Part shown: positions 12,536 through 63,601 of the stretch, in pieces
How the letters are laid out: each line of letters begins with the position of its first letter
Numbering within the stretch: the first letter of the stretch is position 1
Origin: Lachnospiraceae bacterium
GTDB lineage: Bacteria > Bacillota > Clostridia > Lachnospirales > Lachnospiraceae
Assembly (NCBI GenBank): GCA_022510525.1
Contig: JAFLTH010000001.1
Location: forward strand, 1 to 64,000
Length of the DNA stretch: 64,000 nucleotides
Direction of reading: 5' to 3'
Notes under the pieces: model-generated
The model's database searches: none
Told to the model about the DNA's origin: nothing
What the model saw: only the letters and a program-made list of their open reading frames with translations
Program-made: the position numbers and the translations under genes

Positions 12536-12638
12536 GGATACATTCCAGTTTATATATTTATTTCTTCAACTTTCCCCATTTTATTGCTGCCCATATAAAA
12601 CATATGTTTAAGAATACCTTCAAAAATATCTATTAATG

Positions 12639-12666
12639 CAAAAAACCGCCCCATAATAGGAGCAGT
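12639..12666 (-). terminator. Terminator downstream of the 12787-13488 gene
   Basis: Minus-strand ACTGCTCC..GGGGCGGT followed by TTTTTT, about 120 bases after the stop codon. Confidence 0.6.
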
Positions 12667-45195: not shown

Positions 45196-45206
45196 ACCGC
45201 TCTCCC

Positions 45207-46361
45207 TTAAAATACATACTCTGTAGATTCATTGACAGCAAAATTGACCGAATACACAGTTTTCATGTAGTTTCTGAAATCATAGAAATAGGCTCCTGTT
45301 TTATCGTAGCCTCTGTCGTTCATCATGTCACTCGGGATAATATAGGTGAATCCTTTTTTATATTCATTTTCTTTGAAATGTTCCTTGATATCGCTAAAAA
45401 CAAGCAGACCTGCGCTTGTAATACTTCCTCCGTATCCCCTGTTTTCTACGCAAATCGTTTTTATATCCTTATGATGCTTCAAAAAGTAGCTGTGTGTAGA
45501 TTTGGTGCAAACAACAATAAAATCATCAAATCGTTTTTTTAGCTGCTCCAAATTCTGGTCTATTACGCGGCAGTGCTCCTTGTATAAAACGCTCTTCATA
45601 TCCGTTTCATTATCCAGATACTGAACTTCGTTATAGAAATCATCATTATGAAGTTCATATATTTTTTCAAGAGCGTCATAATGAGTGGCTTGGCACTTGA
45701 CGGCAAAATCTCTGCTAAACTTATTGGAAAAATTTGTATGATGAATTTTATATATGCACATGTTCCCCCTGTTTTTATAGCCCTTCAGTGTTTCCACGTC
45801 GTCGCAGAGCATAGAGATATCACCGAAATATTTCAGATAGCTGAAGCTGATAGGCATCTCCTCTAAAAAGGTTCTGACACGTTCCACATTATTAATGCTC
45901 ATTATCTTATTTCTGAAATCACTGTTGAAGGTGTTTACAGAGAGACAAATTTTTAAGTTGTTAATCTTTTTTAATTCTTCAATCATTTCATCGGTGGCAT
46001 AAACAGCGGAGGTATCAAAGTGTATAGTTGCATCGGGATACCTTTCGTTTATTCTCTTTAAAAAATAAACAAAGTCCGGATGCGCCATTGGCTCGTTCCA
46101 ATACATGCCGAATCCGCCGCCGATGATTATTTCAGGGCATTTAAACGGATTGACAAAATCAAGAGCATCTTCAAATTCATCTCTGGATATAAAAGGGATT
46201 TTCATTAATGAATCCGGGAAATCGTTATTATTGAAACAAAATTTGCAGCCAATCCGGCATACAGAACCAAGTTCAATCGTATAGGGATCAATACCCTCAG
46301 ATGCAGCGTTTAATAAAAATCTTTTATATTGTGACATATTTAGATTTTTTTTACGTTCCAT
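45207..46361 (-). CDS. Radical SAM enzyme
   Basis: 384 residues from ATG 46361 (GAGAGGAAAAGC upstream); the longer frame to 46427 has no such site. CX3CX2C at Cys35-Cys39-Cys42 (CRIGCKFCFNN), then a GGGFGMYWNEP SAM-binding region and an HFDTSAVYATDEM strand. No SPASM-type C-terminal Cys set is obvious. It is first of the three-gene minus-strand unit. Its substrate is unknown. Confidence 0.82.
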   Translation of the reverse strand: MERKKNLNMSQYKRFLLNAASEGIDPYTIELGSVCRIGCKFCFNNNDFPDSLMKIPFISRDEFEDALDFVNPFKCPEIIIGGGFGMYWNEPMAHPDFVYFLKRINERYPDATIHFDTSAVYATDEMIEELKKINNLKICLSVNTFNSDFRNKIMSINNVERVRTFLEEMPISFSYLKYFGDISMLCDDVETLKGYKNRGNMCIYKIHHTNFSNKFSRDFAVKCQATHYDALEKIYELHNDDFYNEVQYLDNETDMKSVLYKEHCRVIDQNLEQLKKRFDDFIVVCTKSTHSYFLKHHKDIKTICVENRGYGGSITSAGLLVFSDIKEHFKENEYKKGFTYIIPSDMMNDRGYDKTGAYFYDFRNYMKTVYSVNFAVNESTEYVF

Positions 46362-46612
46362 TGCTTTTCCTCTCATTGATAAATAGTACGTGTGTAATTC
46401 ACATTGCTTATGCTGTAGTTTTAACAATTTATGTGAATTATATCGATAATTGTCTGAACTAGCAATAATGTGGTCTATATTGGATAAAAATTGGGTAAAA
46501 ATAGTATAAAATCCGTACTAGAGTTTCATTCCCACAAAATTGAGGTATACTTGACCTTGAAAATTATAGAGGGGTTCCAAAACTATGATTAAAAGGCTAC
46601 AGCTCCTTTGTT
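46362..46612. promoter_or_regulatory. Upstream region of the radical SAM trio
   Basis: A/T-rich. ATTGGATAAAAATTGGGTAAAAATAG near 46477-46502 contains a loose direct repeat (GGATAAAAATTG/GGGTAAAAATAG), recalling the repeats at 37540-37571 in composition only. No small ORF with a convincing ribosome binding site was found. Confidence 0.3.
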
Positions 46613-47588: not shown

Positions 47589-50009
47589 TTATAAGATATC
47601 ATCAATATTCTCGCTGCCATCAGGCAGGGTATTTGCAATCATCTGATCGGTGATATCTGAATCGTCCGATACAGTTGATGCACTTTGAAAATAGCTTAGT
47701 GGCGTCCCGGGAAGGAAGCTGAAGCCTGTTTCCATTTCAATATCGGAGAGAATATCGTCTTGGATGTCTAAATTGTCCGGAATAGGGCTGTCAGCATTGA
47801 CAGTGACCGGATAAAAGAAAATGTCACTCCGTTTTATGTTCTCCCAGTCTTCTGGCTTTAAGAACTCCACAATCCCCTGCAAAGCGGGAAGGGGTCGTCC
47901 GTTTCTGGTCGTAAAGAAGGTCACTTCCTGAAAGTCCTTCATTCGGATGTCGATTTCTTCAAGGAAATTCTTCTGTGTTGTCATTTCCCTGCTTGAAAAT
48001 GAATAGTGCGGGGAACTGTCAGTGATAGCGGTTTCCGTCGTTGACCGCTGTACTTCAGTCACATCATGTACACCCGCCAGGGCAGAAAAAATCTCCATAT
48101 CGGAAAGGGAGGAACGCCCGAACACAATGATATGCGCGCATCCCAGAATGACACCTTTTAAATACTTGGTAATCTCGTTTTTTTCCATCTGATCCAGTGT
48201 CTGTATTGCTACAGTCATCGCAACCCGGAACTTGCGGAATAGCGAGAAGTTCTTTTCGAGAGAAGGGTGGATCAGTACGGGAAGTTCGTCTACATAGAAA
48301 AAGTGCGGAATGCGGGTAAATTCTGTTCCCGGTCGTGATAATACGGCATTATTAAATGAAAGAAGAAAGAATAAACCGAAAGCTACGGCATCCGTGTCGC
48401 CGCTGGCGAGATTGTAGTTACATACAGTGACCTCTCCGTTTGCCAATGCACGGTCGAAATCAATACTGTTCTGTGAGCAGAAAATCTCCCTGTTGGCAGG
48501 CATCAGCAGGAACTCATTGATAATGTTGCGTGTGCCTCGGCTCTGGTCCTCCATCTTATCCCTGCCTTTTCCGAGCAGGTCTTCACGTATGTACTGGATG
48601 ATAAAGGCGTACTGCTTTGTACTTCGGTCCAGGTCCTCCAGTTTATCAACGTATTCTATTAGCAGATCAAAGTTGTTGATGATTGCCTGTAAGTCCGTAG
48701 GTGTGGCCTGCCTCTTGCGTAATATAGGTACGGTTGCCATTACCAGAATAGCGAGGTTGGCAATCATCTGGCGGTTTAAGCCGGTAAAATAGGAGTCTGC
48801 TTTTCCCTTTAGATCCGTTATTGCCTGCATGACATCGGAGAAGATGACGGCTCTCTTTACGATCATCTGGTTTTTTGCATCTTCTTCCATATGGGTAGGG
48901 ATATAAAACGGGTTTAGTCCGATTGTGTTCTTTTTGTGCTTTCCGTCTGCATCACGTACGGCATCTATCCGATTGTATGGGATGTCCCGTGCGTCACACA
49001 GACGGCATACATCATCCGTCAGTGAATCGTCCGGAGCAAGCACGGTAAGACCGCATATGGGATAGTTAAGGCGGATATCTTCCAGCTTCTTTTGTATCTC
49101 CTGAAGCTTGTGGTCGATTTCATAAGGCGATATGTCTTCCGGCTGTTTGACGATAGGGATGCAGTCATTGACGGAAAAGCTCCGTGTATTGGCTGGAGGG
49201 GAGTATGTGATAAGACCGGCGGCCTCCAGCTGCTTTACATGGAATTTCTGCACATCCTCTGCCTTGCAGCGCATATTTAAGTCGTCACGGATAGCGGGCA
49301 GGATGGTGGAAGATGTTTTTCCGGTGCCGGAAGTCCCGTCGATCAGCGTGTGCAGGAAGCGGTCCTTTGCATATACAGTAATGTTTTTACCTGTATTGAT
49401 GTCCCGCACGATATTCATGTTATAAGCAATCTCGTTCTTTTTCTTCGCTTCCGGCTCTATGAAATGTGTTATCTTGTAAGCTAGTACCTTTTTGCGGCAC
49501 GCCGGGTCCCGGAGGGCAAAAAAGACTCCCTTTGATAATAGAAATCCTATAGGGATAAGGGGAAGCTGCGTTGCAATTCGGCCTAGTAGCAGCACCATGT
49601 TCTTTGTAAAAGCCTCGTCCACGGGAAGCCGGAGGATTGCAGGCAGGAAAACACGGGACAGTCCGCAGTAAATCAGCGACAGCAGGATCAGGAAAGCGGA
49701 GGATAGTACGCTCCCCAGGCATAGCAGCTTTATTTGGTGGAAATTGTAAAAAGAGTACTTTGTTCCATAGAGATAAAGCAGTATCGGGGCGGTCAGCCAG
49801 AATACGAGGTATACCGGGTTTAAGGGGATAAAGCTGTAATCCAGCCGATAAAGGGAAAACAGGAACTTGATGGTAAAGTGCAGCATATGCAGGAATAAGG
49901 CTATGTATCCGGCATTAACGGGCAGAATGGCGCGGTTTCCCTTTATATTTGCGGCAGCCTCCTCCCTGATGCTGTTGAAAAAACTTGTTAGGGAGTGTAT
50001 TTTACTCAA
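47589..50009 (-). CDS. VirD4/TraG-type coupling ATPase (conjugation)
   Basis: 806 residues. Four N-terminal membrane segments (within residues about 30-175), Walker A LIDGTSGTGKTSSTILPAI at about residue 226, Walker B FFYVDELPVLIHP at about 570 and the following ATP-binding region (KGVILGCAHIIVFGRSSLSD). These are the hallmarks of type IV coupling proteins that drive DNA to the transfer channel. It overlaps the preceding winged-helix gene by 4 bases. It is the only clear conjugation protein in the window; no relaxase is present. Confidence 0.85.
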   Translation of the reverse strand: MSKIHSLTSFFNSIREEAAANIKGNRAILPVNAGYIALFLHMLHFTIKFLFSLYRLDYSFIPLNPVYLVFWLTAPILLYLYGTKYSFYNFHQIKLLCLGSVLSSAFLILLSLIYCGLSRVFLPAILRLPVDEAFTKNMVLLLGRIATQLPLIPIGFLLSKGVFFALRDPACRKKVLAYKITHFIEPEAKKKNEIAYNMNIVRDINTGKNITVYAKDRFLHTLIDGTSGTGKTSSTILPAIRDDLNMRCKAEDVQKFHVKQLEAAGLITYSPPANTRSFSVNDCIPIVKQPEDISPYEIDHKLQEIQKKLEDIRLNYPICGLTVLAPDDSLTDDVCRLCDARDIPYNRIDAVRDADGKHKKNTIGLNPFYIPTHMEEDAKNQMIVKRAVIFSDVMQAITDLKGKADSYFTGLNRQMIANLAILVMATVPILRKRQATPTDLQAIINNFDLLIEYVDKLEDLDRSTKQYAFIIQYIREDLLGKGRDKMEDQSRGTRNIINEFLLMPANREIFCSQNSIDFDRALANGEVTVCNYNLASGDTDAVAFGLFFLLSFNNAVLSRPGTEFTRIPHFFYVDELPVLIHPSLEKNFSLFRKFRVAMTVAIQTLDQMEKNEITKYLKGVILGCAHIIVFGRSSLSDMEIFSALAGVHDVTEVQRSTTETAITDSSPHYSFSSREMTTQKNFLEEIDIRMKDFQEVTFFTTRNGRPLPALQGIVEFLKPEDWENIKRSDIFFYPVTVNADSPIPDNLDIQDDILSDIEMETGFSFLPGTPLSYFQSASTVSDDSDITDQMIANTLPDGSENIDDIL

Positions 50010-51604
50010 TAAAGCTCACTCCTTTCTGTGATGGATAGCTGCCCGGTAAAGTCGTCAAAATCAATCATGGCAGGCAGCCAGAGTTTTTCCTTTTTAAAAT
50101 AGGCATTCTGCAGGGCAGGCGTTTGGTACAGGTCTGCCTTTTTGTCCAAGAAACAGATATGCACACAGGCATTTTCCGGTTTCTGCAGGATATTGGACAG
50201 CTCAGACATAAACTGGACTGCATCTTTCCGGTCTGAAACCAGCAATATGAACAGGCAGTCTCGTTCTTTCCGATGCTTCCGCAAAAAAAAGCGGACGCGT
50301 TCGCGTCCACCAAGATCATGTACAATATCCTCGAATATAATCACGGATTGGGAAGAATCCTTATTTTCAAAAGTGTTATAAAAAAAGAACTGAAGTTCTC
50401 CCATATCGGAAAGAGACTGGGAGGGGTGATATTCCCATGCATCCAGGTTCTGCAGTCCAATATGGAACAAGATTTGCGGAAACCATTGCTGCAGGTGATA
50501 TTCTTTCTGGAAAAGAAAAGGAATGTTGTCTGCCAGTCTATGGTTAGGAATGACATACAGACGCATACCTTGGCGGATACGGTGCTGTAATGTGGCATAG
50601 CTGCGGTTATCCAATATGCTGTAAAATTTCTGCTTCAGACGTTTCAGAAAAAGCGCATCCTGATTGGAAGCACGCTCGTCCTGAAGGGATGTATCATACA
50701 GGAATTCTTTTTTCATCAGGATGGCATCATTTAACGAGATATCGGGATACTGCCTGCATAAATTCCTTAAAATCGTTTTGTCGTTTCCCGACAGCAGAGA
50801 TAAATAAGGAGAGCTGCCGTTCTCAACAATGTCGAAAAATGACGAAAAGTGCAGAGGTTTCCCCTGTTCCTTCTCCAGAGTCTGCCATATGCGGATTGTC
50901 TTTAACATAATCCGGTATACGGAATAGGGTGGCTTCTTTATCGGTGGTGATTTAATTTCTGTATTTAAAGTGAAAACAAGGGTATTTTCCATTGCATTCA
51001 TGCCAAGGAACAAGTCTGAGTCCATATATTGAGACAGCTTGTTTTCCAATGCGGCATCCCCTTGTGTACGGTTATCCAGCTCTATATAGTAATTGCCGTA
51101 TCCCGTTTCCAGAAGCCCGTCACAGCGGGGTGTCTGCTGTCTGTCCGGTGCAGCCTGATAGCGGGCTTCCAACTGCCAAATGGGAAGATGCTCAAGGCAT
51201 GGGCAGGAAAGATACGCAAAATATATATCGTTGGTGTGGATGCGGTGTGGGAGCTGCTGCTGGCTTGTCGGGGGTCTGCGCTCAAGGTCGATCTGCTTTG
51301 CACATAGAAAAGTGCTGTCAAAAACCTTTTCAAGACGCGTTTTCCCTTTTGCGGTCAAGAGGAAATATCTTATACGGTTAGTGTTTGGCAGGGTTTTGCC
51401 TGTTATAAGCCCCTGCTCTATAAGTTTTTTCAGGCTCAGGCGTCCGCCTGTGGAAGAAATGCCGTGAAGCCCGGTAGCTGCCAACTGCTGATAGGTCAGT
51501 GTGTTTGCCTGCGCAAGAATAAAGAGGTCACAGTCGCTTTTTGTCAGGGAGAGCAGCCGGGCTTCCTTAATCAGCGTGTCCCTGAAATTTAGTGTGTTTT
51601 GCAT
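50006..51604 (-). CDS. Winged-helix replication-relaxation-type protein
   Basis: 532 residues. The N-terminal winged helix (LSLTKSDCDLFILAQANTLT, YQQLAATG, GGRLSLKKLIEQGLITGK) is followed by a nuclease-like or unknown middle region (ELEARYQAAPDRQQTPRCDG, YYIELDNRTQGD). The E-L-D-N-R-T pattern resembles the replication-relaxation domain. It is first in the transfer operon and shares the conserved leader RNA. Confidence 0.65.
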   Translation of the reverse strand: MQNTLNFRDTLIKEARLLSLTKSDCDLFILAQANTLTYQQLAATGLHGISSTGGRLSLKKLIEQGLITGKTLPNTNRIRYFLLTAKGKTRLEKVFDSTFLCAKQIDLERRPPTSQQQLPHRIHTNDIYFAYLSCPCLEHLPIWQLEARYQAAPDRQQTPRCDGLLETGYGNYYIELDNRTQGDAALENKLSQYMDSDLFLGMNAMENTLVFTLNTEIKSPPIKKPPYSVYRIMLKTIRIWQTLEKEQGKPLHFSSFFDIVENGSSPYLSLLSGNDKTILRNLCRQYPDISLNDAILMKKEFLYDTSLQDERASNQDALFLKRLKQKFYSILDNRSYATLQHRIRQGMRLYVIPNHRLADNIPFLFQKEYHLQQWFPQILFHIGLQNLDAWEYHPSQSLSDMGELQFFFYNTFENKDSSQSVIIFEDIVHDLGGRERVRFFLRKHRKERDCLFILLVSDRKDAVQFMSELSNILQKPENACVHICFLDKKADLYQTPALQNAYFKKEKLWLPAMIDFDDFTGQLSITERSELY

Positions 51605-51958: not shown

Positions 51959-52471
51959 TTAATCGCATATGGGATAAGAAAATTTCCCGATTCAATAGGA
52001 AAATAGAAATCTTGCTGCAATAAGAACACATACGAAAGAATATGTCCTTAAATAACACATTTTTTAAATACTTGTGTTAGAAGGAAAGGCGAAAAGAAAA
52101 TATTCACAGCATATGCTACAAGAGACGTCTGAAAGAATAGATAAACTACTGTGATATCTAATAAGCAAAGGGGTATAAGAGTATATGTGATCTATTTAGA
52201 AATGGGAAATCTGACATATAAACTCGGAATTATTGCATCTGGAAAAATAACCTTAATAAAAAGTGTACAGTATATGAAAACAGAACAGGAAAGAGAAGAA
52301 GAGATTTTAAAGAATTAATAAATTGTTTGGTCTAATGGATGAATGATGGATGGCTAGATAGTAAGTTGCTATGCATCCATTCTGTTACTGTACTTATTGT
52401 TATTTTTGTCGGGGTATACTCCACCAAAATATACAAATAGAGAATAATGAGTTAATGAGGAGGTTATATCA
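51959..52471 (+). other. Upstream region of the RiPP cluster
   Basis: It holds a possible small frame at 52187-52318, a 7-bp inverted repeat (ATGGATG/CATCCAT, 52346-52380) and a promoter-like TTATTG-N15-TATACT (52394-52420) ahead of the first radical SAM gene. Confidence 0.45.
52187..52318 (+). CDS. Possible small protein, 43 residues
   Basis: GTG start, no strong ribosome binding site (AGAG nearby). The composition is protein-like: hydrophobic middle (YKLGIIASGKITLIKS) and charged helical end (TEQEREEEILKN). It could be a small regulator of the RiPP cluster or chance. Confidence 0.25.
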   Translation: MIYLEMGNLTYKLGIIASGKITLIKSVQYMKTEQEREEEILKN

Positions 52472-53569
52472 TTGCTTAAATTATTGCTAACAAACCGTTG
52501 TAATTTAAATTGTCGATATTGTTATGAAGGAAGCAAAAAAACCAATACTCTCAATGATATAAAGGGAAAGAAAGCAATAGATTTTTATTTTGATTTACTA
52601 ATAAAGGAATATGAAAATATTGGGTTCATTCCAATTGTTTATCATGGAGGAGAGCCGCTATTAGAGTTTTCATTAATGAAAGAATTAACAGAGTATGCAA
52701 ACGAAAAATTATGTAAACTAAATAATAAAAAAGTGAAAAACTGTGCTTTCTCCTTTACCACGAATGGGATTTTACTTAATGAAAAGATGTATGATTTTTT
52801 CATAAAGAATAATTTCGATATTTCGATTAGCATAGATGGGAAGCAAAAAACACATGATTTAAACAGAGTAGACTATAGTAATAATGGATCATTTACAAAG
52901 GTTTTTTTTAACGCAAATGAATTAAAGAAAGTACTTGGGAACAAACTTAAAGTTAGAATGACGGTGACTCCAGATACAATAGCAGATTTAAGTCAAAATG
53001 TGAGTTGGTTTATTGAAGAAGGATTTACAAATATTGGGATAGTCTTAGATTATTTTGCAGATTGGACAGGCAAATTAGAAAGTATAGAGGAAGAATTTAG
53101 AAAGCTTCAAAATATTTATATTACTTATCGTAAAAATAATAAAGAGTTTATTGTTGATATATTTGACGGAAAGATAAAATCCTACTTAGTTAAAGAGGCT
53201 CCTGCTTATTGTAATGCAGGATATGGAAGTATTACGGTTGATGCAGACGGGGAAATTTATCCATGCGTTTACGGTATTAATGAGCAAATGGCAATAGGAA
53301 ATGTTTATAAAGGAATTAATTATAAAGAATATAGTAAAAAAATAGCTGAAGCTCTTTCAAAAGATGAACAAAGGATCTCAAATTGCGTAAACTGTGAAAT
53401 ACAATATTTTTGTCATGCAAAAAAGTGCGGGTTTCTAAATCATGCTACTACGGGATTTTTAAATGTTTCCAATGAGATAGTATGTTATCAGGAGAAAATA
53501 TTGTTTCCGATTATTAAAGAAATTGTTGAAATATTTAATATTGGATCTGCAGAAAGTGTGAAAGGATGA
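52472..53569 (+). CDS. Radical SAM/SPASM RiPP maturase (first)
   Basis: 365 residues from TTG 52472, which has GAGGAGG 8 bases upstream. CX3CX2C at Cys10-Cys14-Cys17, GGEPLLEFS SAM-binding motif, and a SPASM region with CNAGYGSI, CVYGI, CVNCEIQYFCHAKKCGF. SPASM enzymes typically form thioether or C-C crosslinks in a precursor peptide. It opens the RiPP operon, with the precursor gene two genes downstream. Confidence 0.88.
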   Translation: MLKLLLTNRCNLNCRYCYEGSKKTNTLNDIKGKKAIDFYFDLLIKEYENIGFIPIVYHGGEPLLEFSLMKELTEYANEKLCKLNNKKVKNCAFSFTTNGILLNEKMYDFFIKNNFDISISIDGKQKTHDLNRVDYSNNGSFTKVFFNANELKKVLGNKLKVRMTVTPDTIADLSQNVSWFIEEGFTNIGIVLDYFADWTGKLESIEEEFRKLQNIYITYRKNNKEFIVDIFDGKIKSYLVKEAPAYCNAGYGSITVDADGEIYPCVYGINEQMAIGNVYKGINYKEYSKKIAEALSKDEQRISNCVNCEIQYFCHAKKCGFLNHATTGFLNVSNEIVCYQEKILFPIIKEIVEIFNIGSAESVKG

Positions 53570-53575
53570 TTAGAT

Positions 53576-55078
53576 ATGTATGATATCATTCTTGTCGTTC
53601 CTCTATTTAAAGAAAAAGATTCATTGCCAATAATGGAATATCAGGGATTTGCTGTATTGCATGCATATTTGGCTAATAGAGGATTTAAAGTCAAAGTGAT
53701 AGATGCCTATGCTGAACAGTTAGAGTTTGAAGATGTTATTACAATATTAAATTCTTATGAATATCGTTGGATAGGATTTACAGTAATGTCATCTTTATAC
53801 TTAAAAAATGCCGAAAGAATAGTAAATGAATTGAATACTAAATATTCAAAAAATGCGAATGCTTTTTTGGGTGGCATTTATGCTACTTTGTATTGCAAAG
53901 ACATTTTGGAAAGTTCAAATACATTTCAATTTATAGTATTAGGAGATGGGGAGAAAACTATTTCGGAAGTATTGGCAGGTAATGATTTACATCAAATTAA
54001 AGGGGTAGCGTATAAGGAAAATGGTGCAATTACTGAAAAAATCGGGAAGCCTTTAAGTGAGGATGAATTGAATTGCGCTCCGGATCCGATACACATGGAT
54101 TTGCATAAATTTATAAAAGAGGGCGGCATAGTTCAAATTGTGACAAGCAGAGGCTGCTATGGACGATGTGATTTTTGTGCAGTTAATTCATACATGAAAA
54201 AAATCAATTGTTTTCAGTGGAGAGCCCTATCTGCCGAGAGAGTAGTTCGTGAGATACAGAGCCTTTACAGAATATACAATATTACGCATATTGATATTGC
54301 TGATGATAATTTTATAGGATTTGGTCAAAAAGGAAGAGATCGAGCAAAGAAAATTGCAGAGATGCTCATTAAAGAAGATATCAAAATTAGCTTTAATGTT
54401 TATTCAAGAGTAAATGATTTTGATGAAGAAACTTTTAAGTTGCTTAAAAAAGCTGGATTGAACAGTGTTTTTATGGGGATAGAATTTGGCGTACAGAGCA
54501 TATTAGATTTTTATGGAAAAAATATAACAACTGAACAAAATAAAGAAGTTTTAAAAAAAATGCATGATTTGAAAATAAAAGTTGCACCTGGATATATTAT
54601 GTTTGAGCCAAGAATGAGCATCGAAGAATTAAAGGAAAACTTAAAATTTTATTACGAAAATTGTGATTTTAAATTATATAAGATTTTTTCTAAATTAGAA
54701 ATATATAAGAATTCTATGGCACATAAGAAACTTCGATCAATAATAAATATAAGTGATTTGCCGGAATTTCATTACAATTTTGGGGATGTGTGTACGTATG
54801 ATTTTTTGAATCCTAAAATATCAAAAGTATTCGCAGAATTTAAAGAGGCTATTCCTCGCATTATGCCAAGCAAGTCTTATCAATACATAATGAGTCTAAA
54901 GACCGACTTAAATAATATTGAAAGCTTTCAGAATTTATGGAGTCATGAGATATATTGTATTCTTCAGGATAGTATTGACAGAATTAATTCTGGACATTAT
55001 GAAAAAGGAGAATTGGCAGTAAATTTAGTATCTTTTGACAACAATTTTTTGGAACAATTACAATCAATGAAATTATAA
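53576..55078 (+). CDS. Cobalamin-type radical SAM enzyme (class B methyltransferase-like)
   Basis: 500 residues. The N-terminal 140 residues follow the B12-binding Rossmann pattern of the family (GFAVLHAYLANRGFKVKVID, then FTVMS, FLGGIYATL and VLGDGEKTI). The radical SAM motif CYGRCDFC is at Cys194, Cys198 and Cys201. Such enzymes methylate unactivated carbons. In this cluster it probably methylates the precursor peptide. The usual His ligand motif of cobalamin proteins is not evident, as in many class B enzymes. Confidence 0.8.
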   Translation: MYDIILVVPLFKEKDSLPIMEYQGFAVLHAYLANRGFKVKVIDAYAEQLEFEDVITILNSYEYRWIGFTVMSSLYLKNAERIVNELNTKYSKNANAFLGGIYATLYCKDILESSNTFQFIVLGDGEKTISEVLAGNDLHQIKGVAYKENGAITEKIGKPLSEDELNCAPDPIHMDLHKFIKEGGIVQIVTSRGCYGRCDFCAVNSYMKKINCFQWRALSAERVVREIQSLYRIYNITHIDIADDNFIGFGQKGRDRAKKIAEMLIKEDIKISFNVYSRVNDFDEETFKLLKKAGLNSVFMGIEFGVQSILDFYGKNITTEQNKEVLKKMHDLKIKVAPGYIMFEPRMSIEELKENLKFYYENCDFKLYKIFSKLEIYKNSMAHKKLRSIINISDLPEFHYNFGDVCTYDFLNPKISKVFAEFKEAIPRIMPSKSYQYIMSLKTDLNNIESFQNLWSHEIYCILQDSIDRINSGHYEKGELAVNLVSFDNNFLEQLQSMKL

Positions 55079-55126
55079 TATTAATTTACATATTATAATT
55101 AATACTAAAGGAAGGAGGTAAAGAAA

Positions 55127-55282
55127 ATGAAAAACGATGCATATGTAGTAAAGCAGGAAGTAGAGTCTACCAACAATGATAAAAAAGATTATCAGGTAGA
55201 AGGTTATGCTACTTGCAATACAGCGGCAAAGAGATGTCAGCATGACTGTCTCGGCGATGTTTTTTGGACCTCTGCTAATTAA
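55127..55282 (+). CDS. RiPP precursor peptide candidate, 51 residues
   Basis: Strong ribosome binding site AAGGAAGGAGG. The leader (about residues 1-28) is hydrophilic with an acidic stretch. The C-terminal half carries Cys30, Cys37 and Cys41 (spacing X6, X3) plus Trp47 and ends SAN. It has no paralogue in the window. It sits between two radical SAM genes and the ABC exporter, the usual place for a sactipeptide or ranthipeptide-like substrate. Cleavage after EGYA is one possibility. A terminator-like hairpin follows, which would raise its transcript above the downstream genes. Confidence 0.8.
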   Translation: MKNDAYVVKQEVESTNNDKKDYQVEGYATCNTAAKRCQHDCLGDVFWTSAN

Positions 55283-55389
55283 AAGTTTTATCTTCGTGTT
55301 AGATATCATTTCATGAGAAAGCATTAATTATGCTATTTGACTGAAAATATATCTGTATACACAGAAAAACTAAATGGTCCAAAGCACAG

Positions 55390-55431
55390 GAAACTTCTGC
55401 TCAGCAATTTGTAAAGCAGAAGTTTCTTTTT
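55390..55431 (+). terminator. Terminator between precursor and exporter genes
   Basis: GAAACTTCTGC/GCAGAAGTTTC stem then TTTTT. Partial termination here is a common way to over-express a precursor. Confidence 0.85.
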
Positions 55432-55443
55432 AAGAGGTTTATT

Positions 55444-57138
55444 ATGGGTAAGTTATTACGATTTTATAAATTGTTTATGAAAAAATATATAAAAGTAAAT
55501 ATTGTAGTATTATTATTATCTTTATGTGAAAGTGGAATTAGTGTTTTTATACCTAAAGCATATCAATATATTATTGATTGCATTTTCGAAGAAAGTAATC
55601 ATAGGCTGTTTATTAAGGTGATTATATTAATTATATTAGCTTATTTAGTTATAGCGGCGATTTCATATATATCAGGAGTAGTGTGTACTAAAATGAGCGA
55701 GGGCATATTGGCCGATGTTAAAATAAACCTTTTCGAAAAAATCGTTAGTCAGAACATGTTTTATTTTGATGTAAGTAAAGTAGGAAAAGATGTATCTAAA
55801 ATAGAAAATGATGTAAATATATTAGAAAATTTCGTAGCTAATGGTTTTATTGATATATTAACGAGTATATTAAATTTTGGTTTAATCACCTATATGATGT
55901 TAAAAATTAATTTTGCGTTGACAATAATGACAATTGTAATGATGATTTTTTATATTATTTTAAGTAAAAAATTTATTTTTAAGACAAAAAAAATTAGTAG
56001 AGTTATTTTAGAGTCAAATGAAAATATTATGGCATTTATGTCGGAGTGTTTTCAAAAGATTCAGACAATTAAAATATTTACAATGGAGAATATTGTTAAA
56101 AGAAATTATTCATTTTTACAGAGAGATATAATTAAAAAGAAAATAGAAATGGCTAAAATACAAGTAAAAAACATTGAGTTATCTTATCTAACTTTTAAAT
56201 GTTCAGAAGTATTAGTTTGGTTGTTTGCTGGAATTTTAATAATGAAAGGAAAGTTAACTTTGGGTATGCTAACTGCTTTTTTATCATATCAAAGTAACTA
56301 TTTTGAACCAATTCGAAACATATCGGAATTAAATAGTCTTCTAGGGACATCTCTAGCAGCGATTGAAAGGATTTTTAATTTATTGGATATGAAAGATGAA
56401 CAAGAAGGGAATAAGGTGTTGCCCGATTTAAAGGATTCAGTATATATAAAAGACCTGATCTTTTCATACAATGACAAGCATATATTGAAAGGAATAAATT
56501 TATGTATCAGATGTGGAGAGTCAATTGCTGTTGTAGGAAAAAACGGTGCGGGAAAGAGTACGTTAATTAAAGTTTTGCAACGATTGTATAGGGAGCAAAG
56601 TGGAAGTATTTATTGGGATGATGAATGTGTTGATAATTACACATTAGAATCAGTCCGGAAAAAAATTGCAATTTTGCCACAAGATGTAAATTTATTTAGC
56701 ATGAGTATTGGAGATAATATTGGAGTTACCTCGTATAATACTGAAACTGCATTAAAACTGATTGACAGTATGAATATGAAAGAATTTATTGAGCAGTTGC
56801 CTGAAGGAATAAATACATATATTAACGAAAATGAAAGCAACTTATCTGGTGGAGAGAAACAAAAAATTGGGATAATAAGAGCATTGATTAAAAATGCAGA
56901 TATACTGATCCTAGATGAGCCATCAAATTCACTTGATAGTGAGCAGCGGAAACTAATGAACAATATTTTATCAAATGTTAATATGAAAATAGTGATCGTC
57001 ATTACACACGATTTGGAAGAGATATTGAAATTTCCAAGAGTTGTTTTTTTATATGAAGGCACAATAATTGCTGATGGTTCTCCACAAAAGCTATTAGAAG
57101 AAAATAAAGAATTTAGAGAATTATTTGGAGGGAATTAA
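55444..57138 (+). CDS. ABC exporter (transmembrane plus ATPase, no peptidase domain)
   Basis: 564 residues. Membrane segments fall in residues about 15-270, then the ATPase with Walker A GKNGAGKSTLIKVL, signature LSGGEKQKIGIIRAL and Walker B ILILDEPSNSLD. The N-terminal C39 peptidase of many bacteriocin exporters is missing, so the leader must be removed by another protease, possibly the subtilisin-like one at 59472. It most likely exports the modified peptide. Confidence 0.9.
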   Translation: MGKLLRFYKLFMKKYIKVNIVVLLLSLCESGISVFIPKAYQYIIDCIFEESNHRLFIKVIILIILAYLVIAAISYISGVVCTKMSEGILADVKINLFEKIVSQNMFYFDVSKVGKDVSKIENDVNILENFVANGFIDILTSILNFGLITYMMLKINFALTIMTIVMMIFYIILSKKFIFKTKKISRVILESNENIMAFMSECFQKIQTIKIFTMENIVKRNYSFLQRDIIKKKIEMAKIQVKNIELSYLTFKCSEVLVWLFAGILIMKGKLTLGMLTAFLSYQSNYFEPIRNISELNSLLGTSLAAIERIFNLLDMKDEQEGNKVLPDLKDSVYIKDLIFSYNDKHILKGINLCIRCGESIAVVGKNGAGKSTLIKVLQRLYREQSGSIYWDDECVDNYTLESVRKKIAILPQDVNLFSMSIGDNIGVTSYNTETALKLIDSMNMKEFIEQLPEGINTYINENESNLSGGEKQKIGIIRALIKNADILILDEPSNSLDSEQRKLMNNILSNVNMKIVIVITHDLEEILKFPRVVFLYEGTIIADGSPQKLLEENKEFRELFGGN

Positions 57139-58209
57139 ATGTTTACAATAGAGCTTGAGTTAACTAAATGCTGTAATTTACAGTGTAATTACTGTTTTGA
57201 GATTAAAAATTCTAATTATATTATATCATATAAAGAAGCTATTGAACGGATTAATTTTTCGTTAAATAGAGCAAATGAAATAGGAACAAAGGACATTTAT
57301 ATAGATTTTACTGGTGGAGAGCCTCTTCTAGCATTTAACATAATTAGTAAAGTCGTAATATCGCTTCAGTCAGAAAAATATAACAATTATAAATTTAATT
57401 TCGGTTTAGTAACCAATGGAACATTATTTGATTCCGAAAAAAAAGATTTTTTTGAGAAATATAAATTTGATCTAACCCTTAGTTTAGATGGTAATCAATC
57501 AGGTCATGATATAAATAGAGTTATGAAGAACGGAACTGGAAGTTATAATTCTATAATGAAGAATCTGGTTTACTTTACATCTTATACAAAACCAGTAACA
57601 ATCAATATGACTATAACTGACAATAATTTTGAACATTTTTTTGATAATTTTACTTCAATTTTTGATTTAGGTTTCAAAATCATAAGATCAAAATTAGATA
57701 TAAACAGTAAGTGGAAAAATGAAGATTTGGAATTATTAAAGCAGGAATTTTATAAGGTCGCGGATAAATATTTTGAAATTAATAAAGATGGATTAATTGT
57801 ATATTGGGATTTTATAGAAGAAGGGCTAGAAAGCATAATCAATGTTCGTTCCTGCTATTTTTGTGGGGCTGGAATAATATCATTTTGTGTTTCCGCAGAT
57901 GGAACTGTTAGATGTTGTGGAATGTGTGAAAACAATGGAATTATAGGAAATATAAATAATGGAATTAGTAAAGAGGAGTTTGAAAAATTTTCTTCATATT
58001 CTAATGAATTATCTGAGCGGTGTTTAGGCTGTAGCATAATTGATTATTGTCCACAACGCGATTGTATTTTTCTTAATGAAGCCCTCAGCGACGATGAAGA
58101 AAAACTCAACAAATATTGCGAGTGGTATAATTTACGGTATGAAATATGTAACTATATAATTAGAAAGCATGAAGAATATAGGAGAAAAAATAATGATACG
58201 ATGGGTTGA
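57139..58209 (+). CDS. Radical SAM/SPASM RiPP maturase (second)
   Basis: 356 residues. CX3CX2C at Cys12-Cys16-Cys19, GGEPLLAFN, and SPASM Cys in CYFCGAGIISFC, RCCGMC and CLGCSIIDYCPQRDC. It starts one base after the ABC stop codon. It overlaps the next gene by 17 bases. Confidence 0.87.
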   Translation: MFTIELELTKCCNLQCNYCFEIKNSNYIISYKEAIERINFSLNRANEIGTKDIYIDFTGGEPLLAFNIISKVVISLQSEKYNNYKFNFGLVTNGTLFDSEKKDFFEKYKFDLTLSLDGNQSGHDINRVMKNGTGSYNSIMKNLVYFTSYTKPVTINMTITDNNFEHFFDNFTSIFDLGFKIIRSKLDINSKWKNEDLELLKQEFYKVADKYFEINKDGLIVYWDFIEEGLESIINVRSCYFCGAGIISFCVSADGTVRCCGMCENNGIIGNINNGISKEEFEKFSSYSNELSERCLGCSIIDYCPQRDCIFLNEALSDDEEKLNKYCEWYNLRYEICNYIIRKHEEYRRKNNDTMG

Positions 58210-59470
58210 AAATATACAAATTACTAAGAATGGGGAGAAAGTTTTTCTGATTAACTGTCTTGAAGGAACTTGGTTAAGAATACATAAGGATGCAATAGAA
58301 GACTGTAATAATTATTTAATTGGGCGTAGCAAGGAGCAAATACAGCAAAACTTTGTTAATTTATATGAAATTCTTATAAAATATAGAATGATTACTGAAG
58401 AAACTGAGGTTTTGCAGCATTTTTCACGAGCGAACACTATTTATTTTCTCTTAACATTACAATGCAATATGGAGTGTGATTTTTGTTGTATATGTGCTTC
58501 ACCCAAAAAAGAATCTATAAATCTTGAAAAAGAAGTATTAATTAAATTTATAGATGAAATGGCAAAAGCGGAAATAAAAAAAATTATCTTGACTGGAGGA
58601 GAGCCATTACTGTATGAGAACCTAGATTTCTTGGTAACAGAGTTGAGAAAGAAGCTAAAATCTAAACTCCAAATATGTACTAATGGATTATTAATAAATG
58701 ATGCGAATATCAATATATTCTCAAAAATTGATTTAGTTGATATTAGCGTAGAAAATTTTTTTTGGAAGCCACAGGAATATGAAATTAAAAAATTAACAAA
58801 GAAAATAGATATTTTGAAAGAATTGGGTGTAAGTATATGCTTATCATATGTGGTTACAGAATATAATGAAGACATGGTATATAAATTTATAGACTATGCA
58901 TATGCTAATGATGTTAAGTTATCTACTAAAATAGTTTTATCCATAGGAAGAGCAGAGGCAAATACAGATATTTTAGTAAGTGAAGAAAAGGCATATAAAT
59001 TAATGGTAGGTATATATAAATATATTTATAAGAACAAGTATTTTAATGAGAATATGAAAGAGTTTTTATTTCCAACTGGTGTTCCTGAAAAACAGTGCGC
59101 TGCATCTGGAAAAATATTGTCAGTTTATCCAGATGGAAATGTTTATAGTTGCTTTTTGCTAAACAAAGATCCTTATTGCTTAGGAAATATAAAGAAAGAA
59201 AGTTTGCAGGATATAATAATTAATAATCAATGTAAAAACGAAACAGAGTTTTATAAACACTGTTTCGATAAAGATAGAAAAGAAATTTGTAGAGATTGTG
59301 AAGTTCGATATTTTTGTGAAGGAAATTGCATTGGAATTTCGGCAAACAAAAATGTTTTGTGTGAATTTAATAAAAAATATATTTCATATTATATGTGGTA
59401 CTACAGTGAGTTTAATAGCTTAGAACAGAATTTAGAAGATTTTTTAAATTATGTGGGGAGTAATGTGTGA
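58193..59470 (+). CDS. Radical SAM/SPASM maturase with N-terminal recognition domain
   Basis: 425 residues from ATG 58193 (GGAG 8 bases upstream). The first about 85 residues resemble a PqqD-like RiPP recognition element, which binds leader peptides. CX3CX2C follows at Cys91-Cys95-Cys98, then TGGEPLLYE and SPASM Cys (CAASGKIL, CFLLNKD, CRDCEVRYFCEGNC). It probably recruits the precursor for the other enzymes as well. Confidence 0.85.
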   Translation: MIRWVENIQITKNGEKVFLINCLEGTWLRIHKDAIEDCNNYLIGRSKEQIQQNFVNLYEILIKYRMITEETEVLQHFSRANTIYFLLTLQCNMECDFCCICASPKKESINLEKEVLIKFIDEMAKAEIKKIILTGGEPLLYENLDFLVTELRKKLKSKLQICTNGLLINDANINIFSKIDLVDISVENFFWKPQEYEIKKLTKKIDILKELGVSICLSYVVTEYNEDMVYKFIDYAYANDVKLSTKIVLSIGRAEANTDILVSEEKAYKLMVGIYKYIYKNKYFNENMKEFLFPTGVPEKQCAASGKILSVYPDGNVYSCFLLNKDPYCLGNIKKESLQDIIINNQCKNETEFYKHCFDKDRKEICRDCEVRYFCEGNCIGISANKNVLCEFNKKYISYYMWYYSEFNSLEQNLEDFLNYVGSNV

Positions 59471-59471
59471 A

Positions 59472-60584
59472 ATGGCTCGGTTAAAAATTGCAGTTTTGGA
59501 TAGCGGAGTTGATGTTGCCTGTATTCAATTAATTAATAATAATATATATTCGTTAGTGGTTAATGAGAGAAATGGAGTTTATCAAATTGAAAATTCTATA
59601 ATTAATGAAGAGCAACATGGAAGCTTAATTATTCGAGAGATATTGAATGGAGTTGAAAATGATAAATGTGAAATATATTCAATTAAGATATTAGATGATA
59701 ATCTAAATTGTGATGTAGAGAAACTGATATTTGCGCTTGATTATGTTTATAGAAATATAAAGCCCAATATAATTAATTTAAGCCTAGGATATAAAAAGGA
59801 GAATATTCAAGTATATAATATTATAAAAAGAATAATTGGTATGGGAACTTTAATTGTTGCAGCATATGATAATGAAAATGAAGAGAGTTTTCCAGCAAAG
59901 TACCCTGAAGTAATTGGAGTAAAGGGAATTAAAAAAAATAATGATCCGAAAAGATATATATATGATGAAAAAGAGAATAATATATATCTTTATAATGGGA
60001 CAAGGCGTTTTGATTTACCAGGGAAAGGTTATAAGTATATTATTGGAAATAGTATTGCATGCGCCAGTATTACTGCATATATAGCAAATATTTTGTGCAT
60101 GGAAGATTTGGGTATTTCCCAAATATATTCTAGGTTGGCGGAAAAAAGTTCAAGTGAAAGTGAAATAGAATTCAATCCATGTTTTCACAAATCAAAAGAA
60201 AGGATTTTACTATATCCACTAAATATAAGAACATTAAATAAAACGGATAATCTAAAAAAATATTGTTCTTTATGTGGATTTCTGGATTTTAGAAAATATA
60301 TATTTACTACTATTCGTGATAATACAGGGAATGAGTATCCTATTTTTAATAGTTTCGAGGATATACCCAAAGAAATTGATTACATTTATGTTGATGAGTT
60401 AATTGACTGCAAGAGTAGTAATATAAGTAAAGTGTATGAAAAAATATTGAAAGGTGCTTTAGTTTATAAAATAAATCTTTCATTTTATGAAAGACCGGAC
60501 AGTTACTTATTAGAGCGTTTTTCTTACAAATTCAATAAAGAGAAGCTTAACATTGAATTCGTAAATGTATTTGAAAGACTATGA
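59472..60584 (+). CDS. Subtilisin-like (S8) serine protease of the RiPP cluster
   Basis: 370 residues from the ATG at 59472; earlier in-frame ATGs (59463, 59451) are possible. Triad: Asp10 (AVLDSGVD), His49 (EEQHGS), Ser194 (GNSIACAS; canonical GTSxA is altered). IINLSLG precedes the oxyanion region, which reads AAYDNEN. No signal peptide, so it acts inside the cell or is co-exported. Because the exporter lacks a peptidase domain, this is the best candidate for leader removal. The C-terminal 170 residues are unrecognised. Confidence 0.78.
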   Translation: MARLKIAVLDSGVDVACIQLINNNIYSLVVNERNGVYQIENSIINEEQHGSLIIREILNGVENDKCEIYSIKILDDNLNCDVEKLIFALDYVYRNIKPNIINLSLGYKKENIQVYNIIKRIIGMGTLIVAAYDNENEESFPAKYPEVIGVKGIKKNNDPKRYIYDEKENNIYLYNGTRRFDLPGKGYKYIIGNSIACASITAYIANILCMEDLGISQIYSRLAEKSSSESEIEFNPCFHKSKERILLYPLNIRTLNKTDNLKKYCSLCGFLDFRKYIFTTIRDNTGNEYPIFNSFEDIPKEIDYIYVDELIDCKSSNISKVYEKILKGALVYKINLSFYERPDSYLLERFSYKFNKEKLNIEFVNVFERL

Positions 60585-60813: not shown

Positions 60814-60990
60814 GTGTTAGACGGTTACTCATCATTTTCCTGTGTTAGTATAACAATAAAGAATGTTGCATTTATCAGTTTTTTAGGAGAAATATATTGT
60901 TTGGTTAAATAGTGAACATTATACTATATGATGAATAACAAAACATGGAAGTTTAGCATATGGCATGTTTACGAAATCGGGGGAAATTTT

Positions 60991-61668
60991 ATGGTAAAAT
61001 ATAAAATTTTAATAGTTGATGATGAACAGGGAATTGTCACTATGTTAAAAGATTATTTTGAATTCCATGGATATCTGGTATATACAGCTATGAGTGGGAC
61101 AGAAGCTCTCAAGGAAATCAATTCAAAACCTGATATTATTCTGCTTGATATCAATATGCCCGACATGAATGGGCTTGAAGTCTGTAGAACGATTAGGGGC
61201 AATGTATCATGCCCTATCATTTTTTTGACTGCGAGAATAGAAGAAACGGATGCAATCATTGGATTCCAGTCAGGCGGGGATGATTATGTGATAAAGCCTT
61301 TCAAGTTAGGCGAGTTAGGGGCAAGGGTAGAAGCGCACTTACGACGTGAAAACCGAGGGGATTCCAGCTCATCAGCAAAGTTTTTTGACAACCTTGCCAT
61401 AAATTATGATAAACGGCAGGTGTCTTATCAAGATAAAGTGATCCAGTTGACAAAAAAAGAATTTGATATTGTTGAGCTGCTTACAAGAAATCCGGGACAG
61501 GTATTTGATAAGGAAAGAATCTACGAAGTTATTTGGGGGTATGATGACGAAGGGAACAGTTCCATTATAGTAGAGCATGTACGGAGAATCAGAAAAAAGT
61601 TCATGGAATATACAGAGAGAACTTATATAGAAACGGTTTGGGGGATAGGGTATAGATGGGAAAATTAA
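60991..61668 (+). CDS. OmpR-family response regulator
   Basis: 225 residues from ATG 60991 (GGGGGAAATTTT upstream). Receiver domain: ILIVDDEQ, phospho-acceptor Asp in ILLDINMPDMNG, LTAR and the Lys in VIKPF. A winged-helix output domain follows (VIQLTKKEFDIVELLTRNPG, IVEHVRRIRKKF). It forms a two-component system with the kinase gene it overlaps by 13 bases. It probably controls the ABC transporter genes downstream. Confidence 0.93.
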   Translation: MVKYKILIVDDEQGIVTMLKDYFEFHGYLVYTAMSGTEALKEINSKPDIILLDINMPDMNGLEVCRTIRGNVSCPIIFLTARIEETDAIIGFQSGGDDYVIKPFKLGELGARVEAHLRRENRGDSSSSAKFFDNLAINYDKRQVSYQDKVIQLTKKEFDIVELLTRNPGQVFDKERIYEVIWGYDDEGNSSIIVEHVRRIRKKFMEYTERTYIETVWGIGYRWEN

Positions 61669-62756
61669 AAATAATTTATAAAAATCTTCCTTTGAAAAAG
61701 GCATTAACCATTACAATCGTGAGTTCTCTTTTCACTGCTTTTTTAGGAGCGATGGTGATATTATTGGCAACACGTCCAAGCTATTATGCTCTTGCGGCCA
61801 AAAACCCGGAAAATCCGGCTCTGCATTGGCACGATTTTTTTGCCATATCAACCGTGGGTATATATGTTTGTGTAGTGATCATTGCAGGATCATATATTTT
61901 CTATCGGTTAAAACTTTCCGCTCCCTTAAAGGTATTGACGGAGGGAATAGAGCAGATAGCCGTGGATAATCTGGATTTTTCGGTACAGTATGATGCAGAA
62001 GATGAATTGGGGACGCTCTGCAGGTCTTTTGAACGGATGAAGAATGAATTGCAGAATAATTATAAAAGGATATGGCGTATGACGGAGGAGCGCAGAAAAC
62101 TGGGTGCAGCCTTTGCACATGATTTACGCACACCGCTTACGGTATTGCAGGGATATACAGATTTTTTAGAAGAGTATATTCCGTTTCCCGAAAAAGAAGA
62201 TACAAAACTGCTGGAAACGAACCGCATGATGGCATATTATATTAAGCGTTTGGAAGATTATGTCGAAGTTATGAACAAAATCCAAAAATTAGAGGATACA
62301 CCAGTCAAAATACAGACTGTTTCAATAGACAGTTTTATGAAAATGTTGGATGACAACATAAAATTGACAGCTAAGGAATATGGGAAAGATATTTCCGTTA
62401 CAAATGAAGCCAATCTACAAGAGGTTAGGGGGGATATTTCCCTGATCTTCAGAGTGTTGGAAAATGTTATGAGAAACGCCTTCCGATATTCTGAAACCAA
62501 AGTTTTTGTGCGTCTGTATGAGCAGAATCATTTACTTTCTTTTGAAATGATTGATGATGGAGCAGGGTTTAGTCCGGAAGCTCTGGAGCAGGCGCTAAAT
62601 CCCTTTTATACTTCCGGACAATCGGGAACTTCCCATTTGGGACTTGGATTGAATATCTGTAAAATCCTTTGTGAAAAACATGGAGGCAGCATTTCAATCA
62701 GTAATACTCCAGATTCAGGCGCAAGAGTACAATTTTCATTTTTGTTGGAAAAGTAG
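61656..62756 (+). CDS. Sensor histidine kinase
   Basis: 366 residues. Membrane segments at about residues 16-38 and 66-88 flank a short extracellular loop. Then come a HAMP domain, the phospho-accepting His in AFAHDLRTPLTVLQGY (about residue 154), N-box LENVMRNAFRYS and G-boxes DDGAGFSPEAL and GLGLNICKILCEKHGG. The small sensory loop is typical of kinases that sense antimicrobial peptides through a partner ABC transporter. Confidence 0.92.
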   Translation: MGKLKIIYKNLPLKKALTITIVSSLFTAFLGAMVILLATRPSYYALAAKNPENPALHWHDFFAISTVGIYVCVVIIAGSYIFYRLKLSAPLKVLTEGIEQIAVDNLDFSVQYDAEDELGTLCRSFERMKNELQNNYKRIWRMTEERRKLGAAFAHDLRTPLTVLQGYTDFLEEYIPFPEKEDTKLLETNRMMAYYIKRLEDYVEVMNKIQKLEDTPVKIQTVSIDSFMKMLDDNIKLTAKEYGKDISVTNEANLQEVRGDISLIFRVLENVMRNAFRYSETKVFVRLYEQNHLLSFEMIDDGAGFSPEALEQALNPFYTSGQSGTSHLGLGLNICKILCEKHGGSISISNTPDSGARVQFSFLLEK

Positions 62757-62816: not shown

Positions 62817-62848
62817 CCGGAAAATAGCTTGTGAAGGAGTATCGGTAT

Positions 62849-63601
62849 ATGGAAAAAATACTATCTGTATCAGGATTGCAAAAATCTTACATTACAAAAG
62901 GGAATACCTATCCTGTGCTGAAAGGTGTCAGCATGGAGATGAACAGAGGTGAATTTGTTGCGGTCATGGGACCGTCCGGCAGCGGAAAAACGACGCTGCT
63001 GAATATTGTGTCGGGGTTTTTATCAGCAGACAGTGGTAAGGTGAAAGTGGGTTCTGTGGATATGCTTCACACGGATAAAGAAAAACAGGCTGAAATCCGT
63101 TCCAGTATTTTAGGTTTTATCTTCCAGGATTTTATGCTGATAGATGGGTTGACGGTGCAGGAAAATATTTATCTTCCACAGATCATCGCCAAAAAGCCTG
63201 CAGCAGATGTAGAAGGGAAAACAAGTGATCTGCTGTGCGCCTTTGGCATTGAGGATATTTCCGGCAAATACCCAAGCGAGCTTTCCGGCGGTCAAAAACA
63301 ACGGGTGGCTATTGCAAGAGCTTTATCCAATGAGCCGTTGTTAATCTTAGCTGATGAGCCGACCGGAAACCTTGATTCCAAGTCAAGCAATGCTGTCATA
63401 GAAGCATTTCTGTTTGCAAAGGAGCATATGGAGGCTACGGTTTTGATGGTAACACATGATGCAATAGCTGCTTCCCATGCGGATCGTGTGATTGCCTTGT
63501 CGGATGGGATGGTAGTAAGGGAATTGGTACGTCAGAAAGAACAGAGGCAGTTTATGAATGACATTCTGGAATTTTTGAAGATTGTGGAGGTGGGACAATG
63601 A
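62849..63601 (+). CDS. ABC transporter ATPase (BceA/MacB type)
   Basis: 250 residues from ATG 62849 (GAAGGAG upstream). Walker A MGPSGSGKTTLLNIVSGFL, Q-loop FIFQDFMLIDGLTVQEN, signature LSGGQKQRVAIARAL, Walker B LLILADEPTGNLDSK. It overlaps the permease start by 4 bases. With the two-component system it forms a Bce-like detoxification module, likely for self-resistance. Confidence 0.92.
   Translation: MEKILSVSGLQKSYITKGNTYPVLKGVSMEMNRGEFVAVMGPSGSGKTTLLNIVSGFLSADSGKVKVGSVDMLHTDKEKQAEIRSSILGFIFQDFMLIDGLTVQENIYLPQIIAKKPAADVEGKTSDLLCAFGIEDISGKYPSELSGGQKQRVAIARALSNEPLLILADEPTGNLDSKSSNAVIEAFLFAKEHMEATVLMVTHDAIAASHADRVIALSDGMVVRELVRQKEQRQFMNDILEFLKIVEVGQ

Follow-up and report, generated by a model that had tools for sequence, protein, structure and literature searches.

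Seven genes on the plus strand of contig JAFLTH010000001.1 (assembly GCA_022510525.1, Lachnospiraceae bacterium), at positions 52472-60584, probably direct the synthesis of an exported, thioether-bridged, ribosomally synthesized and post-translationally modified peptide (RiPP). They form a single block within the window analysed here (the first 64,000 nucleotides of the contig), in the order papB1, a radical S-adenosylmethionine (rSAM) enzyme with a B12-binding domain, a 51-residue precursor, an ATP-binding cassette (ABC) exporter, papB2, a third rSAM enzyme with a SPASM domain and an S8 protease. The successive intergenic distances are 6, 48, 161, 0, -17 and 1 bp, a tight spacing that leads us to read the block as an operon. 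An initial annotation of this DNA had listed these genes and compared the cluster with those of sactipeptides. All of its gene coordinates hold, and the precursor, the four rSAM enzymes, the exporter and the S8 protease do make up a real RiPP-type cluster, whose parts, the B12 enzyme apart, are found again elsewhere alongside a matching precursor. The comparison with sactipeptides fares less well: since PapB is the best-scoring model for papB1 and papB2, side-chain thioethers between Cys and Asp or Glu fit better than thioethers to the alpha-carbon. We file the cluster as a variant of the PapB/QhpD-like thioether RiPP clusters, its closest relatives, which also carry two PapB-like genes, differing in that no B12 enzyme was seen in them.

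All four rSAM enzymes match the Radical_SAM Pfam model above its cut-off and contain the CxxxCxxC motif. Three had been annotated as SPASM enzymes, which stands for papB1 (52472) and the third enzyme (58193), both above the Pfam SPASM cut-off; the product of papB2 (57139) has SPASM-like cysteines and no Pfam SPASM match. For both papB1 and papB2 the best curated model is PapB (NF047865; 209.1 and 176.7 bits, respectively, with the cut-off of 340 not reached), followed by QhpD (TIGR03906; 129.2 and 120.1 bits, under the cut-off of 453). The SCIFF maturase model (TIGR03974) gives 126.4 and 109.5 bits, also under its cut-off (425), and the precursor has three Cys against six in SCIFF; the lachnocin maturase model (NF038170) gives 85.9 bits for papB1, with the cut-off of 550 not reached. 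In the two PapB-like enzymes the rSAM motif begins at residue 10 (papB1) or 12 (papB2), with no N-terminal extension; consequently, no leader-binding domain can precede it. Within the genus, papB1 has matches at 1e-25 in 61 of 77 genomes (the source genome included), but the frames elsewhere are mostly of approximately 460-540 residues and resemble SCIFF maturases, and the three of them placed in our rSAM tree group together, away from papB1. A papB2 profile run against 392 genomes of the order returned the source genome alone at 1e-70. A single-sequence search of viral contigs with papB1 confirmed no relative, and a protein search with it retrieved 24 phage and 82 plasmid records, every one at less than 60% identity; six plasmid regions were examined, one of them drawn from the S8 search.

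Related clusters were gathered with two profiles. Profile A1, built from papB1 and four other short PapB-like enzymes, was run on 391 genomes of the class and gave four strong matches beyond the source genome (292-363 bits), over a broad background (316 of the 391 genomes at 1e-44, mostly longer SCIFF-maturase-like frames at no more than 243 bits). Profile A2, built from eight short PapB-like enzymes, was run on genome contigs and on viral contigs, with the best 80 loci taken from each (160). Four of these best 160 loci carry two PapB-like genes together with a third SPASM enzyme, an ABC gene and an S8 protease: L141 in a Eubacterium metagenome-assembled genome, L142 in Anaerocolumna sp., L143 in a metagenome-assembled genome of the Clostridia and L154 in Paenibacillus bouchesdurhonensis. 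A tree built from 93 rSAM rows places papB1 in a clade with one PapB-like gene from each of these clusters and papB2 in a clade with the other, each with support 100/96. The five-row papB1 subclade joins 17 rows from other clusters in a 22-row clade (support 99/95) that takes in Paraclostridium sordellii and C. difficile plasmids, Romboutsia, Clostridium oryzae, Blautia, Lachnotalea and others; these 22 clusters are a sample, gathered using profiles of the clade's own members. The third SPASM enzyme is present at all 22, and the S8 protease at 20, with no S8 gene in the sequence read at L133 and at L155 (a 4-kb contig). The window cluster combines a PapB-like enzyme of the clade, a third SPASM enzyme and an S8 protease with a precursor that bears the motifs of the group.

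That precursor had been described as a 51-residue peptide with Cys30, Cys37, Cys41 and Trp47, and so it proved. Its open reading frame (ORF) follows a strong Shine-Dalgarno sequence (aaaggaaggagg) and is conserved along with the enzymes, the point on which the initial annotation had staked its proposal. Each of the four two-PapB relatives has a small ORF provided with a Shine-Dalgarno sequence, and blastp of the window precursor against a small database retrieved those of L141 (E 1.6e-6), L142 (1.3e-4) and L154 (4.8e-4), which share with it the pattern EGYAxC-x6-CxxDC; L143 has CxxDC with a longer spacing. When the nearest qualifying small ORF was taken at each cluster, with no selection on motif, CxxDC was present in 20 of the 22; the two exceptions are L132, where a CxxDC precursor was found by a looser rule, and L175. 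After removal of L200 and L221 (near copies of L199 and L173) and with one precursor kept per cluster, 20 precursors remain. CxxDC occurs in 19 of them, where 2000 shuffled sets gave 0.26 on average and never more than 3, and a leader motif, [DEQ][VIL]xx[QY], in 17 (shuffle mean 0.40, maximum 3), the latter being missing in L143, L149 and L187. The window precursor has both, as CQHDC and QVEGY, and contains CxxD at residues 37-40 and 41-44 only. Outside the clade, a CxxDC small ORF was found at one of 79 loci, just 23 of which had any qualifying small ORF; this control extended 4 kb to either side of the enzyme gene, as against 9 kb for the clade, and at 4 kb L182, whose precursor ORF lies 8 kb from the enzyme gene, would drop out. 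An NCBIfam scan of 14 precursors gave none above cut-off and two chance-level matches (E 0.02-0.04).

Several other loci deserve mention here. L173 (1669-9857; Blautia sp. Marseille-P3201T) and L221 (an IMG/VR contig of the viral collection) hold arrays of many similar CxxDC precursors with one enzyme set each. On P. sordellii plasmids, L099 and L100 are CxxDC clusters in which agr-type genes are present and the third SPASM enzyme occurs twice. L203, which lies outside the CxxDC clade, has a Cys-rich small ORF (12473-12655) near a PapB-profile match in a 711-residue frame and a short S8 match.

The remaining genes of the block provide candidates for substrate binding, leader removal and export. 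The third SPASM enzyme has approximately 88 residues ahead of its core, which may form a leader-binding domain. A PqqD-like domain annotated earlier was not confirmed, as neither Pfam nor NCBIfam gives a PqqD or RiPP recognition element (RRE) match and the PDB gives none with the N-terminal domain alone. Alignment of the N-terminal part with the N-termini of seven SCIFF maturases by hhalign gave 0.5%, although with the full-length profile the alignment does reach into the N-terminal region of 5wgg, 8vpo and 5v1q. The S8 protease matches PF00082 above cut-off and keeps Asp10, His49, Asn134 and Ser194 (370-residue numbering). Its GNSIA sequence, previously singled out as altered, is real; it is neither unusual in the group nor degenerate, since the catalytic residues are intact and GNS occurs in seven of 13 aligned S8 proteases, the other six having GTS. 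Its best curated model is QhpE (NF049966; 98.2 bits, with the cut-off of 165 not reached). As an anchor the QhpE family was set aside as too general, 227 of the 391 class genomes matching it and none above cut-off. The exporter consists of ABC_membrane and ABC_tran domains with no peptidase family at E <= 0.1, in agreement with its description as peptidase-less.

Table 1. Features of the cluster and of the module that follows it.
Feature	Position	Strand	Basis and remarks
papB1, PapB-like rSAM/SPASM enzyme, 365 aa, TTG start	52472..53569	+	domain and curated-model scores, tree clade
rSAM enzyme with B12-binding domain, 500 aa	53576..55078	+	Pfam domains; begins 6 bp past papB1
precursor peptide, 51 aa	55127..55282	+	leader QVEGY (23-27), Cys30, CQHDC (37-41), CLGD (41-44), Trp47
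14-bp hairpin running into a T run, terminator/attenuator-like, between precursor and exporter	55388..55431	+	folding against shuffles
ABC exporter, 564 aa, membrane and ATPase domains	55444..57138	+	Pfam and curated models
papB2, second PapB-like rSAM enzyme, 356 aa, SPASM-like cysteines	57139..58209	+	model scores, tree clade
third rSAM/SPASM enzyme, 425 aa, 17-bp overlap with papB2	58193..59470	+	domain and model scores
subtilisin-like S8 protease, 370 aa	59472..60584	+	Pfam, catalytic residues; start picked by eye, 59451 or 59463 also possible
response regulator, adjacent regulator/transporter module, possibly immunity; cluster membership uncertain	60928..61668	+	domain evidence
sensor histidine kinase, same module; cluster membership uncertain	61656..62756	+	domain evidence
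ABC ATPase, same module	62831..63601	+	domain evidence
683-aa protein, sub-threshold FtsX match	from 63598, beyond window end		follows the ABC ATPase

Published systems bear on several stages of a possible pathway. In the excerpts of these sources consulted here, PapB joins Cys to Asp in Cys-Xn-Asp, with n = 0-6 and Cys first (PMC9413430); the motif recognised by ElxP, an S8 protease, is (Asp/Glu)-(Leu/Val)-X2-Gln and lies directly before the cut (PMC10885120); the qhp operon chains thioether formation by QhpD, leader removal by the subtilisin-like QhpE and an ABC exporter (PMC7876137); and TrnC and TrnD, two SPASM enzymes, are effective only together, as a complex (PMC12093266). In the window cluster, papB1, papB2 and the third SPASM enzyme may modify the 51-residue precursor in cooperation, because papB1 and papB2 have no room for a leader-binding domain of their own. 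The first would most likely join Cys37 to Asp40 in CxxDC by a side-chain thioether, since its clade is the one by which the 22 clusters are defined and CxxDC is the motif that they have in common; the CxxD within that motif (n = 2) fits the PapB substrate range. The second would most likely make another Cys-Asp/Glu bridge, and Cys41-Asp44 is its best candidate here, as the papB2 clade comprises only the five two-PapB clusters and the window precursor has CLGD in place of the Asp or Glu found in the other four at four or five residues past the first Cys. The B12 enzyme would add a change specific to the window copy, most likely a C-methyl group, as judged from the class of the enzyme. The S8 protease would cut after Tyr27, a site predicted from the resemblance of the QVEGY leader motif to that recognised by ElxP, freeing a 24-residue core (Ala28-Asn51, with a calculated mass of 2611.137 Da before modification) that the ABC exporter would send out. 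Taken as a whole, we consider this scheme of bridging, B12-dependent change, cleavage and export to be probable on balance. Because a regulator pair, an ABC ATPase and a large protein with a sub-threshold FtsX match follow the cluster, and because an ABC ATPase and a large permease-like protein (recognised by eye) sit at all four two-PapB relatives, we favour an antibacterial product with immunity.

A number of observations weigh against this scheme. No curated equivalog cut-off is passed (papB1 209 of 340 bits, papB2 177 of 340, S8 protease 98 of 165), and papB1 is just 30.5-35.3% identical to its four closest counterparts. The L143 precursor lacks EGYA and was missed by blastp of the window precursor, and L175, one of the 22 clusters, carries CxxNC. 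Both CxxDC and the leader motif were picked after the sequences had been seen; the shuffle tests thus overstate their strength. The window leader motif itself starts with Gln rather than Asp or Glu and ends with Tyr rather than Gln. The window precursor also lacks the Asp or Glu that the four two-PapB relatives have four to five residues after the first Cys, so that either its bridges must be arranged differently or Cys30 must undergo some other reaction. Finally, the GC content of the regulator/transporter module is 34-41%, against approximately 28-29% in the cluster, and the module may therefore not belong to it.

Alone among the components, the B12 enzyme lacks a counterpart in the related clusters read. 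It was rightly annotated as a cobalamin-type rSAM enzyme, its B12-binding domain being above the Pfam cut-off; its score against the model of RiPP rSAM C-methyltransferases (TIGR03975) is 55.7 bits, with the cut-off of 281.85 not reached, and among proteins of solved structure OxsB is its closest relative (E 4.2e-20, across part of its length). No B12-profile match was seen in the stretches read of the 21 other clade clusters, some of which are short (4 kb for L155); these 21 include the seven clade loci, on plasmids and genomes, that come in addition to the best 160. The sole B12-profile match above 60 bits among the best 160 loci, L159, sits outside the clade; B12 matches occur in three of the four genomes that carry two-PapB clusters (best E 5.8e-18), none of them at the cluster. 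These distributions speak for the alternative that the peptide is a substrate of just two or three of the four rSAM enzymes, the B12 enzyme having another substrate or being a recent non-functional insertion. We regard this as a possibility of lower probability, for the gene lies between papB1 and the precursor, 6 bp from the former and 48 bp from the latter, with both domains above cut-off and CxxxCxxC present. Its position in the operon argues, without proving it, that the enzyme acts on the peptide.

A single-sequence scan of genome contigs with the B12 enzyme confirmed no relative of it. Among 394 relatives, 11 gave a match at E <= 1e-20, counting the source genome itself, and the best match elsewhere had 32% identity. 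The enzyme was also tried as an anchor for related clusters and rejected: none of 12 wider regions (ten spanning 11 of the 14 other match places, and two in genome G907 around separate B12 matches) held a cluster of the group, with PapB-profile scores of at most 68 bits and S8-profile scores of at most 27 bits. At two loci, L313 and L314, a B12 rSAM enzyme stands beside an ABC exporter and an enzyme to which the third-SPASM profile gives 177-179 bits, with no PapB-like or S8 matches; these may represent another peptide cluster.

As to the role of the product, a signal or a protein-borne cofactor piece could take the place of an antibacterial peptide. QhpD and QhpE mature an enzyme subunit, the P. 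sordellii clusters carry the agr-type genes noted above, and SCIFF-derived ranthipeptides are reportedly tied to quorum sensing, going by the title of a cited reference. By contrast, inspection by eye of the ORFs around the cluster revealed no dehydrogenase subunit, for which no dedicated search was made, and the ATPase and permease-like pairs of the four relatives have a similar pair downstream here. A signalling or cofactor role appears to us rather unlikely.

Least probable among the alternatives weighed is a sactipeptide, in which the SPASM enzymes would make sulfur-to-alpha-carbon thioethers: the sactipeptide maturase StsB (NF045574) is the best model of the third SPASM enzyme (67.7 bits) and of two of three related enzymes (86.8, 105.2 and 118.6 bits), but the window score is far under the 625-bit cut-off, papB1 and papB2 score best against PapB rather than a sactipeptide model, and Asp, the acceptor used by PapB and QhpD, is conserved beside the second Cys. 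A defence system was rejected, PADLOC giving weak viperin-like similarity for the rSAM enzymes and an unnamed candidate model for the B12 enzyme.

Turning to the surroundings of the cluster, GC content falls from 43-48% in the preceding 4 kb to approximately 28-29% over 52-60 kb. Just upstream (47589-51604) lie a TraG/VirD4-like coupling protein and a replication-relaxation protein, likely part of a conjugative element. Low cluster GC together with these upstream genes suggests that the cluster arrived with a mobile element; the cluster DNA has no match among plasmids. The hairpin between precursor and exporter has a folding energy of -21 kcal/mol (z -4.08), which none of 200 shuffles equals. 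A small ORF at 52151-52318 contains no Cys and has no family match in Pfam or the curated models. Further away in the window are a protein with weak HINT-like matches, under Pfam cut-offs (37679-39178), a solute-binding-like protein with a Thiaminase-1 domain above the Pfam cut-off (39192-40415) and, on the minus strand, two further rSAM enzymes on either side of a 367-residue protein with no Pfam match (43038-46427).

What emerges is a sharply defined peptide group, characterised by CxxDC and a predicted cut site and distributed in Clostridia, a Paenibacillus and plasmids. In the open-access full-text literature nothing was recognised as this group, which may have been described elsewhere; the one paper found to contain 'CXXDC' deals with phage sulfur genes, judging by title. 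The two-PapB subtype raises the questions of how an rSAM enzyme lacking a leader-binding domain recognises its substrate, and whether bridging by two PapB-like enzymes and a B12-dependent change can be combined on a single very short peptide. A bolder and doubtful proposal is that the window cluster represents an undescribed RiPP class, in which two PapB-like enzymes free of leader domains and a third SPASM enzyme would act as a single assembly on a CxxDC peptide, with release by a QhpE-like protease and, in this copy, a B12-dependent carbon-carbon change; if true, a single 24-residue peptide would be shaped by four different radical enzymes.

Among known systems, PapA/PapB (freyrasin, a ranthipeptide) resembles the window cluster in its SPASM rSAM enzyme, PapB being the best model of papB1 and papB2, and in a Cys closely followed by Asp. 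It differs in having one such enzyme, where the window has two, both without an N-terminal extension and scoring under cut-off, in its six Cys-X3-Asp motifs in place of CxxDC, and in the absence of the additional SPASM and B12 enzymes. The qhp operon (QhpD, QhpE and QhpF; quinohemoprotein amine dehydrogenase) likewise brings a thioether-type rSAM enzyme, a QhpE-like subtilisin and an ABC exporter to bear on one small peptide. Unlike it, the window cluster scores under the cut-offs of the qhp models and has three SPASM enzymes and a B12 enzyme, and neither a dehydrogenase subunit nor QhpG was recognised by eye nearby, in the absence of a dedicated search. In many loci of the same family (L044-L063), and with lachnocin (annotated in L102), SPASM-type rSAM, ABC and S8 genes also lie close together, but their rSAM and S8 proteins are mostly longer, and papB1 reaches 86 of the 550 bits of the lachnocin model. 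Lastly, thuricin CD shares the use of more than one SPASM enzyme on its precursor and offers, in TrnC and TrnD, a precedent for an enzyme complex; it differs in its sactipeptide chemistry and in that, according to the excerpt consulted, both Trn enzymes possess an RRE or RRE-like domain.

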